A stretch of 64,000 bases of DNA from Candidatus Nitrosotenuis aquarius. GTDB lineage: Archaea; Thermoproteota; Nitrososphaeria; Nitrososphaerales; Nitrosopumilaceae. The stretch lies in contig NZ_CP024808.1 of assembly GCF_002787055.1 (NCBI RefSeq), positions 708,328 through 772,327 on the forward strand, in the 5' to 3' direction. Below are positions 33,414 to 40,644 of this stretch, piece by piece. Every line of letters begins with the position of its first letter. Positions within the stretch are counted from its first letter, which is position 1. Below the pieces are notes generated by a model. The model was given only the letters and a program-made list of their open reading frames with translations, was not told where the DNA came from and did not search any database. The translations under genes were made by a program, and so were the position numbers.

Positions 33414-34082
33414 ATGTCAGAAAACAGAACATTCTTCAACTTTTCATTCTTCAAAATAGACCCAAAATGGCGATGGATGGCAGACCTGGCAAAAGAAGAA
33501 TCTGCAAAGGAAATCGAGCAGGTGATTAGAAACTCCAAGATAAAGTGCAGGACTTATTCCACGCTAGGCTTGCGAGACGACGCAGAATTCTTGTTCTGGT
33601 TTGCATCCGAATCTGTAGAAGAAATACAGAGTGTGATGGCAAAAATCTACTCCACCGTCTTTGGAAAATACATTATTCCATCCCATGTGTATCTGTCATC
33701 CACTAGGCCGTCAATTTACGCAAAGATGGGCAGAACTATATCATTTGTTGCAGGAGACGAGCCAAAAAAATACGTAATTGTGTATCCTTTTGTCAAGACA
33801 AGGGAATGGTATCTACTACCTTTAGAGCAAAGAAAGAAAATGATGGATGAGCACATTGATGTAGGCCACAAGTACCCGCAGGTATTGCTAAACACGACTT
33901 ATTCCTTTGGAATCCACGATGAGGACTTTATGCTAGCGTTTGAAACAGATGATCTACCTGCATTCCAAGATCTTATAATGGAGCTGCGAGAGACCCAGGT
34001 CTCCAGATACATCGAAAAAGACACGCCCATGATCGTGTGTGTCAAAAAAGACATTGTTCCGCTGATTTCAAGTCTTGGATAA
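33414..34082 (+). CDS. chlorite dismutase-family protein, HemQ-like (candidate coproheme decarboxylase)
   Basis: 222 aa. Two ferredoxin-like halves of the Cld fold are visible. The haem-binding half has MMDEHIDVGHKYPQVLLNTT, with a histidine in the place of the proximal ligand, then YSFGIHDEDFMLAFETDD and LMELRETQVSRYIEKDTP, the family pattern R-E-T/A-x-x-R-Y. Bacterial HemQ converts coproheme to haem b, and some archaeal Cld-family proteins do the same. The haem genes 3-7 kb away support this. Chlorite dismutation is less likely. Confidence 0.8.
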   Translation: MSENRTFFNFSFFKIDPKWRWMADLAKEESAKEIEQVIRNSKIKCRTYSTLGLRDDAEFLFWFASESVEEIQSVMAKIYSTVFGKYIIPSHVYLSSTRPSIYAKMGRTISFVAGDEPKKYVIVYPFVKTREWYLLPLEQRKKMMDEHIDVGHKYPQVLLNTTYSFGIHDEDFMLAFETDDLPAFQDLIMELRETQVSRYIEKDTPMIVCVKKDIVPLISSLG

Positions 34083-34155: not shown

Positions 34156-35148
34156 ATGAAATATCGAACTCTGGGAAAAAGCGGAATCAAGGTATCTGAG
34201 ATAGGATTTGGAGCTTGGACCATAGCTTTAGACTGGTGGGGCAAAAAAATCGAGGACGACGAAGCAAAAAGAATGCTAAGACGAGCATATGACCTTGGAA
34301 TCAATTTCTTTGAAACAGGCGACATGTACGGAAAAGGCAAAAGCGAAAGGCTAATCGGCGAAGTATTCAAGGGAATGCGAAATGACATTGTAATTTCTAC
34401 CAAATACGGCTATGAATTCGAAGGCGCTACACAAATAGGACATTCAGAGTTGCCGCAGAGATTTGACCCGTTATTCACAGAGCATGCCCTAAGAAACAGC
34501 CTTGCAAGGCTGCAAACTGACCATATCGACGTGTACGGTTTGCACAATCCAAAGATGCACCACATTGAGGACGATGTGATTTTCAACACTCTTGACAGAA
34601 AGATAAACGAGGGAGTAATTGGCACATACCAAGTAGCACTAGGTCCGGCAATTGGCTGGACAAAAGAAGGTATTGCTGCAATGAGTCGCAAAAACGTCTC
34701 TGCAGTGCAAACAGTTTACAATATTTTGGAGCAGACGCCGGGAAACGAGCTAATCGACGAGGCTGCAAGAAAAAACGTCGGGATTTTGGTACGAGTGCCG
34801 GACGCATCTGGAATACTCACAGGCAAAGTAAAGGCAGACACCAAGATAGATGAAAAAGACCATAGATCAGTTAGGCGCGGAGAATGGGTAAAGTCAGCAC
34901 TAGACAAAGTGGAACAGTTACGACCGATTGCGGAGAGAAACGGCCTCAACATTACAGAGCTTGCAATCAAGTTTATTCTATCAAAGAATCCTGTGTCATC
35001 AGTATTTCCAACTGTCATTAGCATAGAGGAAATAGAGCAGTTTGCAGCAATGTCGGATGGGCGATACATTCCTTCTTCAGACATGGAACAAATTTCCAAA
35101 ATGTACTCTACTTGGCCATCATATGAGCTCAAGGCAACAGTAGCATAA
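34156..35148 (+). CDS. aldo/keto reductase
   Basis: 330 aa, TIM barrel. It has IGFGAWTIAL at the start, the catalytic Tyr in TGDMYGKGKSERLIGEV, the Lys in VISTKYGYEF and the His in DVYGLHNPKM. The C-terminal NADP segment SSVFPTVISIEEIEQFAAM is present. The substrate is unknown. A TATA-like TTATATTATG overlaps the start region. Confidence 0.92.
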   Translation: MKYRTLGKSGIKVSEIGFGAWTIALDWWGKKIEDDEAKRMLRRAYDLGINFFETGDMYGKGKSERLIGEVFKGMRNDIVISTKYGYEFEGATQIGHSELPQRFDPLFTEHALRNSLARLQTDHIDVYGLHNPKMHHIEDDVIFNTLDRKINEGVIGTYQVALGPAIGWTKEGIAAMSRKNVSAVQTVYNILEQTPGNELIDEAARKNVGILVRVPDASGILTGKVKADTKIDEKDHRSVRRGEWVKSALDKVEQLRPIAERNGLNITELAIKFILSKNPVSSVFPTVISIEEIEQFAAMSDGRYIPSSDMEQISKMYSTWPSYELKATVA

Positions 35149-35541: not shown

Positions 35542-36330
35542 ATGCAGCAGGTGCAGATTTCACAAAAGGGCGCATTGCTTGTGTGCCTTGGCATGATGGG
35601 CTTTGTTTACTTTCTTGCCAACATTTTCCAGCAGGAAAACTATCCAATAATTGAAAACAGCGTCTATCCTACAGATATTTTCTTTATTGTAGTGTCGCCG
35701 ATTACAATCATCATAGCCGCAATATTGGTAGTGCGACACGGCACCACCGGGAATCACTCCATTGCATGGATTTTGTTTTTGGCAGGCGCTATAGTCTGGT
35801 ATGCTGCAGATCTGACATATTATTACAATTCAGAATATGTCGCAGAGAACAACCAGTCGTATTTGGTGGATTACCTGTATTATTCCAGCTATTTTCTGTA
35901 CTTTGGGTTTATGGTATTTTACCTAAGACCGCGAAAAAACAAGATTTCAAAAAAAATGATCATACTTGGAATAATAATTTCTGCTAGTTTTATTATGCCA
36001 AGCTTGTACTTTATTTCGCAAAAACCAATCACCGACAATGCAGAAACTGGCATAAACCTAGTCTATCCGTTTTTGGACTCGATGGTCTTTGTACCGGCGT
36101 TTGTTGCGGCGATTTTGTTTTTCAGGGGAGAGGTGAACTTTTTGTGGATCACAGTGACACTGGGAGTAATATGCATGGCAGTTGCAGACACTGTATTTTT
36201 GATAGAGCGGTGTCTTGAGATATTTTCTACAAGCAGCATGGCAAACCTGTTTTTTGCGTGGAAGTGGATACTCTTTGGGTTTGGCGCATACAGCCACGTC
36301 AAGATCTTTGGCGCAAAACCTAGGCAGTGA
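35542..36330 (+). CDS. multi-span membrane protein, unknown
   Basis: 262 aa with about seven or eight membrane helices in pairs: ALLVCLGMMGFVYFLANIF, ITIIIAAILVV, ILFLAGAIVWYAADLTYYY and further. Aromatic residues are abundant and there are few charges in the spans. The layout resembles a sensor-type 7TM module without a cytoplasmic output domain; the helical protein encoded just upstream could be its partner (inference). The last 11 bp overlap the convergent ahbAB gene. Confidence 0.7.
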   Translation: MQQVQISQKGALLVCLGMMGFVYFLANIFQQENYPIIENSVYPTDIFFIVVSPITIIIAAILVVRHGTTGNHSIAWILFLAGAIVWYAADLTYYYNSEYVAENNQSYLVDYLYYSSYFLYFGFMVFYLRPRKNKISKKMIILGIIISASFIMPSLYFISQKPITDNAETGINLVYPFLDSMVFVPAFVAAILFFRGEVNFLWITVTLGVICMAVADTVFLIERCLEIFSTSSMANLFFAWKWILFGFGAYSHVKIFGAKPRQ

Positions 36331-37333
36331 TTGGCTCTTCTATTGTAAACTCGCTTTCCGTGAAATATTCGACACGCGTCTTTTTGAATTCGCGTGAGCT
36401 GAATAAAATTTTGTAGTCATCCACATTGATGTGCTTTTGGATGTCCTTTGCCATTTCCTCTGCCTCTGGAATGGATTTGCAGTGGACCATGGAAAACACA
36501 TTGTACGGCCAGTCTTCATATACAGGCCTTTGGTAGCAGTGGCTGATTTGCGGAAACGCGCCAAGCTTTGCGCCAACTGGCTCTATTTGGTCTTCTGGAA
36601 CGCGCCAGACAATCATGCCGTTTGCCACAAACCCCGCATCGCGGTGTCGCAATATTGCGGCATATCTTCTCATCACGCCAATTTCTTCGTAATATGCCAG
36701 TTTTTCAAAGACCTGCTCTTCTGTCATTCCAAGCGCATTTGCTGCCGGAAGAAACGGCCTGTCCACCACCGGCAGGTCTTTTTGGAGATGCCTGATGAAT
36801 TCCTTGTCGTCCTCAGTTGGCGTGAACTTTGTCTCTGTTATCTTTTTCTTTTCTTCCGTTGGGGCGACCTCTTTTTTCTTGTCGTCGACCATGTCCAGTT
36901 TTACCCCTATCTTGAAGAGCTTTATTGTTGGAAGCAGCCGCACCTTTAGAATTCCAGGCAACTTGGAAAACTTGTCAACCTCTGTCTTTAGATCAGAGCC
37001 TGGCGGCGTTGCAAGTGTAAACCACAAATTGTACTCGTGGTTCCTCTCGTAATTATGCGACACACCGGGGTGTCGGTTAATCTGGTTTGCAACATAGTCC
37101 AGCTTGTCAGGGGCAATTGCCATTGCGACAAGGGAGCTCTTGTAGCCCAGTCGTCTTGTGTCAAAAATTGCCGATAGCTGTCGCAATACGCCTGCTGATT
37201 TTAGATCTGTGATTCTTTTTTTCATTTCTTCGTGCGTTATGTTGAATTTTTCTGCCAGTGTTCGGTATGGCTCTGAGACTAGCGGAAAGGACCACTGGAT
37301 TTCATTTAGAATTTCTCTGTCTAGTGCATCCAT
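36320..37333 (-). CDS. ahbAB: fused AhbA-AhbB-type siroheme decarboxylase
   Basis: 337 aa made of two homologous Lrp/AsnC-like halves. Half one (1-148) starts MDALDREILNEIQWSFPLVS and has GVSHNYERNHEYNLWFTL. Half two (178-337) has DLPVVDRPFLPAANALGM and ISHCYQRPVYEDWPYNVFSM. Both carry the SH-x-Y-x-R segment of AhbA/AhbB. A charged linker rich in Lys and Glu (150-175) joins them. The reaction is decarboxylation of siroheme to 12,18-didecarboxysiroheme. In sulfate reducers these are two proteins. It is divergent from met8-hemA-hemB, which supports the assignment over a plain Lrp regulator. Confidence 0.85.
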   Translation of the reverse strand: MDALDREILNEIQWSFPLVSEPYRTLAEKFNITHEEMKKRITDLKSAGVLRQLSAIFDTRRLGYKSSLVAMAIAPDKLDYVANQINRHPGVSHNYERNHEYNLWFTLATPPGSDLKTEVDKFSKLPGILKVRLLPTIKLFKIGVKLDMVDDKKKEVAPTEEKKKITETKFTPTEDDKEFIRHLQKDLPVVDRPFLPAANALGMTEEQVFEKLAYYEEIGVMRRYAAILRHRDAGFVANGMIVWRVPEDQIEPVGAKLGAFPQISHCYQRPVYEDWPYNVFSMVHCKSIPEAEEMAKDIQKHINVDDYKILFSSREFKKTRVEYFTESEFTIEEPITA

Positions 37334-37416
37334 TACACCATAAAATCCCGGTTTGAATTAAAAACGTAGCGAGATTTTCACAATCCTATAAATACAATTT
37401 CAAATCTGCCCTGATC

Positions 37417-38070
37417 GTGATTGTCGACCTGAACCTCAAGGGCAAGCTAGTCATTGTGGTCGGCGCGGGAGGCGAGGGCCTAAAAAAAGTAAATTCGCTT
37501 TTGACGCAAGACTGCCAAATTTTAGTAATATCGGATTCTGCAAACACGCAAATCACAAGTCTTGCAAGGCAGGGCAAAATTCAGTTCAAAAAGACAAAGC
37601 TCGAAGACGCAAATTTCCTCAAAGAATACGACCCGATTTTGGTAATGGCATCAACCGACAACAAGGAGCTAAACAGAAAGATTGTGCAAGAGGCAAAAAA
37701 GAAAAGGTGTTATGCATACGCATCTGACGATCCCGAGTTTTCAGACTTTGCGCATCCATCCGTCATAAACATTCAAGACACAATCCAGGTTGCGATTTCT
37801 ACCGGCGGGCGCTCGCCTGCAATGGCAAGAAAACTCAAGCTAAGGGCGGAAAAAATATTCAATGAAATAATAGACAAGGAAGACATTTACCAAATAAAAC
37901 TGCAAAAAATAGCGCGCGATGCCGCAAAGGCAAAGATCCCAACGGTTCTTGAGCGAAAAAAATTCCTGTACTGGGCTCTCAACGACAAACATATCAAACA
38001 GTTATTAAAAGACGACAATTTTTCAACTGCACAGAAAGAAGTAATGAGGAGACTTGGCGAGTGGAAATGA
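37417..38070 (+). CDS. precorrin-2 dehydrogenase / siroheme synthase (Met8-like)
   Basis: 217 aa from a GTG. The NAD site is LVIVVGAGGEGLKKVNSLL. VAISTGGRSPAMARKLKLR is the conserved CysG-N/Met8 motif, whose Ser-Pro-Ala region shapes the active site. It oxidises precorrin-2 to sirohydrochlorin and may insert iron. It overlaps hemA by ATGA and is 83 bp from the divergent ahbAB gene. Confidence 0.92.
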   Translation: MIVDLNLKGKLVIVVGAGGEGLKKVNSLLTQDCQILVISDSANTQITSLARQGKIQFKKTKLEDANFLKEYDPILVMASTDNKELNRKIVQEAKKKRCYAYASDDPEFSDFAHPSVINIQDTIQVAISTGGRSPAMARKLKLRAEKIFNEIIDKEDIYQIKLQKIARDAAKAKIPTVLERKKFLYWALNDKHIKQLLKDDNFSTAQKEVMRRLGEWK

Positions 38071-39317
38071 GCAATATCATCAATGCCCGTGTAACTTTTA
38101 GAAATTCCCCAATCCACATTCTGGAAAAATTCACGTTCAAGGACCTGGACTCGGCATACGAGTCTTTCAAAAAGCACTCGGGGCTCAAGGAACTGGTGAT
38201 TTTGCAGACATGCAACAGAGTTGAAATATTTGGTTCAACTGACAAGCCAGACATTAGGAAAATAAAAAAGACTTGGGCATCCCTGTCAGGCCTAGAAGAA
38301 GTCGCGTTCAAGGAAAATTTCGAAGTATCAGACGACACTGCAGTCTGCGAGCACTTGCTTAGGCTAACATCAGGCCTTGATTCCATGGTAGTGGGAGAGG
38401 AGCAGATCCTAGGCCAGATCCGCGACGCAATAATAGATGCCAAAGAGCGCAAAATGTCTGGCGAATATCTCAATACCTTGTTTGATAAAGCAGTAAAGAT
38501 AGGCACGCGCGTTCGCAACTCTACTGGAATAAACAAGGGAACAATATCTGTCGGCTCCATGGCAGTCAAACTGGCTGAAGAAAACATTGACGAGTTAAAA
38601 TCAAAGAAAATCCTGCTGATTGGAACCGGCGAGGCGGCAACACTAGTTGCAAAATCATTGGAAAAGCGCGGCTATCCGTTTTTTGTCACAAGCCGAACAA
38701 TGGAAAGGTCGCAGGCATTTGCAGAAACGGTTGGTGGAAAGCCAGTCAGCTTTGAAGAGATAATGAAGGGGTTTTCCAACTATGATGTTTTATTTGTGGC
38801 AACAGTAGCCCCGTATTTTTTGGTCACATACGACAGAATAAGCGAGGCAATGAAGAACAAAACAGGCATGATGATTCTGGACCTATCCAACCCAAGAACC
38901 GTAGACGAAAAGGTTGCAACCATCCACGGCATAAAGATGATGAATCTAGACCAGATAGCGGAAATGGTGGACAAGAACATGCGATACAGAACAAACCAGA
39001 AAGACAATGCAGAAAAAATAATTAGTGAAGAAATACAGGTACTAGAGGCCCAAATGAGACGACTCGAAGTAGAACCAGTGGTAAAAGAGATTTTCAAGGA
39101 CATTGATACGAGGCGCACAAAAGAACTGGAAAAAGCACTGCGCATGCTTGGGGAAACGGACGCATCCAAGGTCAAAATCATAGAGGACCTCACAAAGGCA
39201 GTAGTCGAGGGAATAATCTCAGAGCCGATGAACAACCTAAGAAAGGCATCAGAGCAGGCAGACGAGGACCTGCTCAAGGCAGCGTCCAAGCTATTCGATT
39301 ACAAGAAAAAAGAGTAA
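38067..39317 (+). CDS. hemA: glutamyl-tRNA reductase
   Basis: Reduces Glu-tRNA(Glu) to glutamate-1-semialdehyde, the first committed step of tetrapyrrole synthesis. 416 aa from the ATG at 38067 (ATGA overlap with the met8 gene; a GTG at 38061 would add two residues). The catalytic cysteine is in VILQTCNRVEIFGSTD; GLDSMVVGEEQILGQIRDA and the NADPH site KILLIGTGEAATLVAKSL follow. The C-terminal dimerisation helices are complete. Confidence 0.96.
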   Translation: MSNIINARVTFRNSPIHILEKFTFKDLDSAYESFKKHSGLKELVILQTCNRVEIFGSTDKPDIRKIKKTWASLSGLEEVAFKENFEVSDDTAVCEHLLRLTSGLDSMVVGEEQILGQIRDAIIDAKERKMSGEYLNTLFDKAVKIGTRVRNSTGINKGTISVGSMAVKLAEENIDELKSKKILLIGTGEAATLVAKSLEKRGYPFFVTSRTMERSQAFAETVGGKPVSFEEIMKGFSNYDVLFVATVAPYFLVTYDRISEAMKNKTGMMILDLSNPRTVDEKVATIHGIKMMNLDQIAEMVDKNMRYRTNQKDNAEKIISEEIQVLEAQMRRLEVEPVVKEIFKDIDTRRTKELEKALRMLGETDASKVKIIEDLTKAVVEGIISEPMNNLRKASEQADEDLLKAASKLFDYKKKE

Positions 39318-39352
39318 TCTAGAATTATATTGTATTACAAGTGATTTTTTAT

Positions 39353-40336
39353 ATGTCTGCATCATTTCCTACAAAAAGACTGCGAAGACTGCGCAAAAGC
39401 GAAAAGATGCGAAATTTGGTCCAGGAAGTTTTGTTTTCGCCAAATGATTTGATTTGTCCTGTTTTTGTGCAAGAAGACCTCAAGGAGAAGAGTTTTGTCA
39501 AGTCCATGCCAGATATTGTAAGGCTGCCGTTATCCGATGTAACCAAAGAAGTCCAAGAAATAAGGGACCTAAAGATACCCGCAATAATGTTATTTGGAAT
39601 TCCTGCACACAAGGATGATTCCGGAACCGGTGCATTTATCGACGACGGCATTGTACAAAAGGCAATCACCCAGGTGCGAGAAAACTTTGGCGAAGACATT
39701 GTGATAATGGCAGACGTATGTCTGTGCCAGTACACATCATCAGGCCATTGCGGGATTCTCAAGGGAAATAAAATCGACAACGACGCCAGCCTCAAGACGC
39801 TTGCAAGCATTGCATTATCTCAGGCAAAGGCAGGAGTCGATATTGTTTCTCCTTCTGCAATGATGGACGGCCAAGTAAAGGCAATCAGGCAAATTCTGGA
39901 TGAAAATGGGTTTACGGATGTTGGAATAATGTCGCACTCTGCAAAGCACCGATCCTCATTTTACAATCCGTTCCGTGACGCAGCCGACTGTGCGCCACAA
40001 TTTGGCGACAGAAAGACCTACCAAGTCCCATTTACCAATCCTAGAGAGGCAATGCGTGAAATCGAGCTCGACATAGCAGAAGGAGTAGATATTGTCATGG
40101 TAAAACCCGCATTGTCATATCTGGACCTGATTGCAGAGACAAAAAGAACTCACAACATTCCGGTTGCTGCCTATTCGGTCTCTGGCGAATATGCTCTGGT
40201 AAAAGGGGCTGCCCAGCTGGGCTGGATAAATGAAGCAGATATCATGTCAGAGATTTTGTATTCTATCAAAAGAGCTGGGGCAGACATGATAGTTACCTAT
40301 TTTGCCAAGAAAATGGCGGCCCTGCTTAACAAATGA
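39353..40336 (+). CDS. hemB: porphobilinogen synthase (delta-aminolevulinate dehydratase)
   Basis: Condenses two ALA molecules. 327 aa from ATG at 39353; a GTG at 39341 would add four residues. The zinc site is ADVCLCQYTSSGHCGIL. The two active-site lysines are in MSHSAKHRSSFYNPFRDA and DIVMVKPALSYLDLIAE. The gene follows hemA by 35 bp and overlaps the next small gene by ATGA. Confidence 0.97.
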   Translation: MSASFPTKRLRRLRKSEKMRNLVQEVLFSPNDLICPVFVQEDLKEKSFVKSMPDIVRLPLSDVTKEVQEIRDLKIPAIMLFGIPAHKDDSGTGAFIDDGIVQKAITQVRENFGEDIVIMADVCLCQYTSSGHCGILKGNKIDNDASLKTLASIALSQAKAGVDIVSPSAMMDGQVKAIRQILDENGFTDVGIMSHSAKHRSSFYNPFRDAADCAPQFGDRKTYQVPFTNPREAMREIELDIAEGVDIVMVKPALSYLDLIAETKRTHNIPVAAYSVSGEYALVKGAAQLGWINEADIMSEILYSIKRAGADMIVTYFAKKMAALLNK

Positions 40337-40644
40337 GAGACGACGAGCGATTCGAAATAGAGCGCGCATATGACTTGCTACCGCATGTGATTGGTGCAAG
40401 CTGGGCGTGTGTTTGGTTTAGGACAAATAACATCAAAAAGCCCACAATAGAGGAATTTCGAAGCAAGACTGTCGAATATTTTGAAATCATACAGAAGATG
40501 AGTGATGCATATCCTGCAGAGGACAAATTTTTGGACATCATATCATACATGAAAAAGCGTCATGAGCAAGAAGTGGAAAATATCATTTCTGGAAAGAATC
40601 CTGAAATTGAAAAAAGATACAAGAGATACGTCGATTACGGGTAA
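40333..40644 (+). CDS. hypothetical protein at the end of the met8-hemA-hemB operon
   Basis: 103 aa, highly charged and helical (RDDERFEIERAYDLLPHV, EVENIISGKNPEIEKRYKRY). It has a Trp/Cys patch GASWACVWFR. No family recognised. Its ATGA overlap with hemB shows cotranslation, so a role in tetrapyrrole handling is possible but not shown. Confidence 0.6.
   Translation: MRDDERFEIERAYDLLPHVIGASWACVWFRTNNIKKPTIEEFRSKTVEYFEIIQKMSDAYPAEDKFLDIISYMKKRHEQEVENIISGKNPEIEKRYKRYVDYG

Follow-up and report, generated by a model that had tools for sequence, protein, structure and literature searches.

The open reading frame at 36320..37333 (minus strand, ATG start, 337 aa) of the window, the 64,000-nucleotide stretch of Candidatus Nitrosotenuis aquarius DNA analysed here, almost certainly encodes a natural AhbA-AhbB fusion and, judging from its sequence, a siroheme decarboxylase rather than a plain Lrp regulator. 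The presence of both proteins in one polypeptide, as put forward in the original prediction, was borne out, since both curated models scored above their cut-offs in the expected halves. The novelty that it implied did not hold: the fusion is already known, having been in print since 2010, a close relative included, and split genes are the exception in archaea. Storbeck 2010 (PMC3004389) describes an ahb-nirDH fusion in almost all archaea with these genes and the split as a methanogen trait. In its table, NMAR_0512 of Nitrosopumilus maritimus has two entries, in what we read as the nirD and nirH columns; this fusion belongs to the lineage of the window but to another species. Kuhner 2014 (PMC3942049) reports both genes as fused in all other heme-synthesising archaea, and a 2024 fusion survey (PMC11237513) describes a fusion of ahbA and ahbB in 14 TACK lineages and in most Euryarchaeota; for a bacterial fused protein, the siroheme decarboxylase NirDL of Hydrogenobacter thermophilus, there is a crystal structure. 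The present gene adds a further example of what is usual in archaea. It fixes entry into late heme synthesis in abundant marine and soil archaea, and the heme route around it is a more interesting question than the fusion itself.

Relatives were taken from several samples. The phylum sample was an even set of 151 genomes, with a match threshold of E ≤ 1e-10, and the window's family is referred to as f1. Named loci came from a GTDB genome scan with 591 confirmed loci, of which the best 80 were kept.

Both halves of the protein were recognised by NCBIfam equivalog models with scores about double the cut-offs. The AhbA model NF040708 scored 269.1 bits for the whole protein (cut-off, 140), with the AhbA half at residues 5-148 (36890..37321, minus strand), and the AhbB model NF040707 scored 253.3 bits (cut-off, 125), with the AhbB half at residues 180-323 (36365..36796, minus strand); each model matched two stretches of the fusion. 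In accordance with the two Lrp-like halves originally described, two NirdL-like HTH domains and two AsnC_trans_reg2 domains were found with Pfam, and the SH-x-Y-x-R segment was present in each half, as SHNYER (residues 92-97) and SHCYQR (residues 264-269). HNYER (residues 93-97; 37043..37057, minus strand) aligned to Desulfovibrio desulfuricans AhbA, and HCYQR (residues 265-269; 36527..36541, minus strand) aligned to AhbB of the same organism. The charged linker said to join the halves was located by alignment and predicted model at about residues 149-172 (36818..36889, minus strand) and had a high content of K, E and D in each of the 25 aligned family proteins.

The Lrp/AsnC fold with its two HTH domains might also be that of a tandem regulator, sensing heme or siroheme and controlling the divergent met8-hemA-hemB genes, the start of met8 being separated from that of the fusion by 83 bp (37334-37416); moreover, DNA binding has been reported for a heliobacterial homologue (cited by Palmer 2014, PMC4145669). 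However, no curated Lrp/AsnC regulator model in NCBIfam exceeded its cut-off for the fusion, the best being LrpA (45.3 bits; cut-off, 250), followed by LysM (41 bits; cut-off, 180) and AsnC (28 bits; cut-off, 227), whereas the AhbA and AhbB models scored far above theirs. Because the regulator models fell so far below their cut-offs, a plain Lrp regulator was rejected as the main reading. With the catalytic HxYxR residues invariant in both halves and a fused enzyme, 4CH7, as the clear best fold match, such a regulator is extremely improbable. The warning that the fusion might be mistaken for an Lrp protein is justified for older annotation, but current NCBIfam models would name it correctly.

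Each half aligned to its D. desulfuricans subunit (4CZD) with the siroheme-site residues retained. In this alignment, which was checked by script, H93 and R97 of the fusion corresponded to AhbA His115 and Arg119, and H265, Y267, R269 and K318 corresponded to AhbB His98, Tyr100, Arg102 and Lys152. According to Palmer 2014 (PMC4145669), His115 is an iron ligand, Arg102 is called catalytic, the R102A complex having no activity, and His98 and Tyr100 are suggested to assist. All six positions of the fusion were invariant in the 25 family proteins, as were H, Y and R of both HxYxR motifs, and both motifs were present in each of the 80 named relatives (the best 80 of 591). A lack of the binding arginines and histidines from both halves, the observation that had been named as decisive against the enzyme, was not seen. 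Unlike the window fusion, AhbA and AhbB of D. desulfuricans and Methanosarcina barkeri are encoded by separate genes. In fusions from two other families, f8 and f16 (L033-L036, L086 and L090), the motif retained His and Arg, with Phe, Val or Leu close to its tyrosine (SHNF/THNF, THVVLR), which suggests that the tyrosine may not be essential.

The AlphaFold2 model of the fusion, built from a shallow alignment of 19 sequences, had a pLDDT of 86.1 and a pTM of 0.79, the linker being its least certain internal part (mean pLDDT of 57-59 over residues 151-170). In the model, two HTH-RAM units formed a pseudo-dimer with an intervening cleft. This intramolecular dimer, the modelling of which had been suggested, fitted the fused NirDL of H. 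thermophilus (4CH7) with a Z of 29.7 over 304 residues; because the whole-model rmsd to 4CH7 was 4.5 Å, the position of the halves relative to each other is only approximate. The next structural matches were 4CZC (Z of 29.2) and then AhbB of 4CZD (Z of 12.8), and RAM or Lrp proteins rendered a Z of at most 11.8 (at most 11.1 for HTH-RAM Lrp proteins). Foldseek ranked 4CH7, 4CZC and 4CZD at the top, and a sequence search of solved structures gave 4CH7 as the best match (276 bits, residues 7-327), followed by AhbA and AhbB of 4CZD on the expected halves. H. thermophilus NirDL (4CH7, 4CZC) resembles the fusion in being a single chain of two Lrp-like halves with HxYxR in each, at about 40% identity over nearly the full length and in agreement with the predicted fold; it differs in being bacterial and in taking its name from heme d1 genes.

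From the characterised homologues we infer the substrate, the product and the roles of the residues. Thus, the fusion would decarboxylate siroheme at its C12 and C18 acetates, yielding 12,18-didecarboxysiroheme. Its two Lrp-like halves would pack together within one chain in the manner of the AhbA/AhbB heterodimer, enclosing the tetrapyrrole in a cleft; H93 in the AhbA half would be positioned for iron binding, and decarboxylation would be carried out by H265, Y267 and R269 of the AhbB half.

The divergent heme genes invoked in favor of an enzyme were found at 37417-40336 on the plus strand. They encode a Met8/SirC-like precorrin-2 dehydrogenase of the cysG N-terminal type (37417..38070; TIGR01470, 112.1 bits, cut-off 62.3), the glutamyl-tRNA reductase HemA (38061..39317; TIGR01035, 346.6 bits) and the porphobilinogen synthase HemB (39341..40336; PF00490, 456.5 bits). 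This linkage was kept across relatives: of 24 AhbAB loci in the family, 23 had Met8 and all 24 had HemA. It fits the enzymatic reading, for which the curated models, the catalytic residues in both halves, the fold and the gene context all speak. In the N. maritimus row of the table mentioned above, NMAR_0509 to 0512 fill what we take to be the hem gene columns, one dehydrogenase column and both nir columns. An ORF of 103 aa (40333..40644, plus strand) overlaps the HemB stop by 4 nt; it was observed in 23 of the 25 family loci examined, and no Pfam family was found for it (best E, 0.011).

The persistence of the divergent arrangement, the HTH kept in both halves and the binding of heme b by M. 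barkeri AhbAB (PMC3942049) would also suit a bifunctional protein, that is, a siroheme decarboxylase that is in addition a repressor or sensor at the divergent hem promoter. However, no Met8 or HemA match was found beside the fusion in the f8 and f16 loci examined, and Palmer 2014 (PMC4145669), where DNA binding by AhbA/B is left open, notes that the HTH of AhbA may not be positioned to bind DNA. We consider such a double function rather unlikely, the siroheme decarboxylase remaining the preferred reading.

An AhbAB match was obtained in 66 of the 151 phylum-sample genomes, including 25 of 25 in f1, each as one open frame. One genome, G066, showed a stop inside the matched stretch, yet its open frame measured 336 aa. 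Of the 100 genomes in the class sample, 89 matched AhbAB; the fusion was present as one ORF in 73 of 74 f1 genomes (it was missed in G153, of 0.8 Mb), and 14 of 15 genomes from other families of the window's order gave a match (all but G210). Similarly, a single frame was observed in 79 of the best 80 of 591 named loci, L109 having one internal stop; the closest named relatives among these 80 were Thaumarchaeota and Nitrosotenuis MAGs. Since a one-frame fusion recurs across family genomes and named loci, it is no assembly accident. The single frame is real, neither chance nor assembly error.

Separate ahbA and ahbB frames beside ahbC and ahbD were found in four genomes of family f2 and in G238, a deep member of the window's order, where the split genes stand in line with ahbC and ahbD (L186). 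In G112 (f21), the two frames were also separate, with ahbC close by. The fused gene of G265, a deep member of the window's order, is convergent with ahbC-ahbD (L188). An unrooted tree of 26 rows, with several long branches and seven inner branches open, placed the f1 fusions together with that of G265 (94/87) and NirDL from H. thermophilus (98/95). The fusions in f8, f16, f27 and f10 fell apart from f1, and the split pairs (G238, f2 and f21) lay nearer the f1 side. As a lead only, this topology would need at least two fusion or fission events. A tie between the fusion and the loss of AhbC and AhbD was rejected, as G265 has the fused gene beside both of these genes and in f8 genomes a fused AhbAB occurs together with good scores for AhbC and AhbD.

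A complete Ahb pathway was not found in the window's family, neither AhbC nor AhbD being detected in the 25 genomes. The best matches to the AhbC (TIGR04546) and AhbD (TIGR04545) models were 2.4e-17 and 6.0e-19, respectively, and E ≤ 1e-10 was reached in only 10 of 25 genomes in both cases. Where split ahb genes adjoin AhbC, the AhbC scores lay between 1e-135 and 1e-175, and f8 genomes gave about 1e-75 to 1e-82. Other radical-SAM proteins reached 2.3e-75 with the AhbC model (G127) in genomes without an AhbAB match, and therefore mid-range scores are no proof of AhbC; those of f1 were far below all three groups. In the order sample (101 genomes), AhbC was above cut-off in none, full-length AhbC matches at E < 1e-150 occurred only in G238, G251 and G265, and partial matches were observed in G270 and G274 of f38 (4.8e-37 and 1.4e-30, respectively). 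In G059 and G071 of f16, both AhbAB and PF06778 were present, and no candidate for AhbC or AhbD scored better than 7.1e-21. Earlier papers have already noted the absence of AhbC and AhbD from N. maritimus and further ammonia-oxidising archaea and have called the heme route of these archaea incomplete (PMC3004389, PMC4010524); the M. barkeri pathway, unlike that of the window's family, has AhbC and AhbD as well (PMC3942049).

The search for another coproheme source comprised ferrochelatase and HemE. Ferrochelatase was found in 0 of 31 family genomes and HemE over cut-off likewise in 0 of 31, with one weak HemE match (G162, 9.8e-4). A classical or coproporphyrin route to coproheme was rejected on the grounds of these two enzymes, and siroheme is therefore the only recognised route to coproheme in the family. 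As AhbC and AhbD were not found there, the classical pathway is broken after AhbAB.

With both later enzymes undetectable in the family, AhbAB could be vestigial, making no heme, or could make didecarboxysiroheme as a cofactor of its own, and heme synthesis in N. maritimus was questioned by Storbeck 2010 (PMC3004389). Neither outcome agrees well with catalytic residues that are invariant across the family, with the retention of the gene in all but one of the f1 genomes of the class sample, with a ChdC-like gene mostly near AhbAB, or with cytochrome b/b6, a heme protein that Park 2014 (PMC4010524) names for ammonia-oxidising archaea. We judge them distinctly improbable and retain an active AhbAB as the preferred reading.

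The locus of the fusion points to a testable end of the heme route, namely, the neighboring ChdC-like gene. It lies at 33414..34082 (plus strand) and encodes a coproheme-decarboxylase-like protein (ChdC/HemQ; PF06778, 205 bits), whose best solved matches were coproheme decarboxylases (116 bits) and then chlorite dismutases (75 bits). Against the HemQ_actino equivalog model, which was made for actinobacteria, it stayed below the cut-off (151.5 bits; cut-off, 235). Y124, the VYPF tyrosine, and H147 aligned to the Corynebacterium diphtheriae enzyme and were invariant in 25 of 25 family proteins; we take them to be the catalytic Tyr and the proximal His, respectively. The stretch aligned to what is presumably the position of the distal histidine in actinobacterial ChdC/HemQ was variable in the proteins of the family. 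The gene was single-copy in all 25 f1 genomes. In the order sample, AhbAB and PF06778 occurred together in 87 of 89 genomes, the other two having PF06778 only, and their starts were within 6 kb in 78 of the 87, farther apart on one contig in four and on different contigs in five. Two order members in the class sample, G153 (0.8 Mb, weak PF06778 match) and G210, had PF06778 without an AhbAB match and are possible cases of heme-route loss.

We infer a hybrid route leading from siroheme through AhbAB and a hypothetical AhbC substitute to ChdC. In the ammonia-oxidising archaeon, didecarboxysiroheme would be converted to coproheme by this putative substitute, and coproheme to heme b by the neighboring ChdC-like protein in place of AhbD. 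We give about even odds to an aerobic hybrid route of heme synthesis in ammonia-oxidising archaea, with fused AhbAB, a non-radical-SAM replacement of AhbC and the "chlorite dismutase-like" protein acting as terminal coproheme decarboxylase rather than producing oxygen; the ChdC-linked aldo/keto reductase may be the substitute for AhbC, or ChdC may act twice. We know of no precedent for the replacement of AhbC. For ChdC in place of AhbD, a precedent is provided by Haloferax, which is reported to rely on ChdC when oxygen is present and on AhbD when it is not (PMC8305020). In print, the chlorite dismutase-like enzymes of ammonia-oxidising archaea have been called proteins of unknown function (ISME J 2023, PMC10432482; PMC5817080), and a literature search, which left subscription journals mostly outside, found no paper that links their PF06778 gene with the making of heme. 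A HemQ paper is cited for gap filling in a metabolic model of N. maritimus (PMC6038301), with no detail in the text seen, and this link may have been used there.

The aldo/keto reductase is encoded at 34156..35148 (plus strand) and was a constant neighbor of the ChdC-like gene, adjoining it in 24 of 24 f1 loci with that gene. Among the best 80 of 591 named loci, those with at least 2.5 kb downstream contained the reductase in 63 of 66 cases and the PF06778 gene in 60 of 66. Glu53 of the reductase was invariant in 25 of 25 family proteins, and Y58, K83 and H130 were kept; Glu53 presumably occupies the position of the catalytic Asp in the AKR tetrad. The phylogenetic profile did not support the reductase as a substitute for AhbC: of the 151 genomes, 87 contained relatives of it, and many of these had AhbC or lacked AhbAB. 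In G090, the ChdC-like gene and the reductase stay together as a pair about 60 kb from AhbAB.
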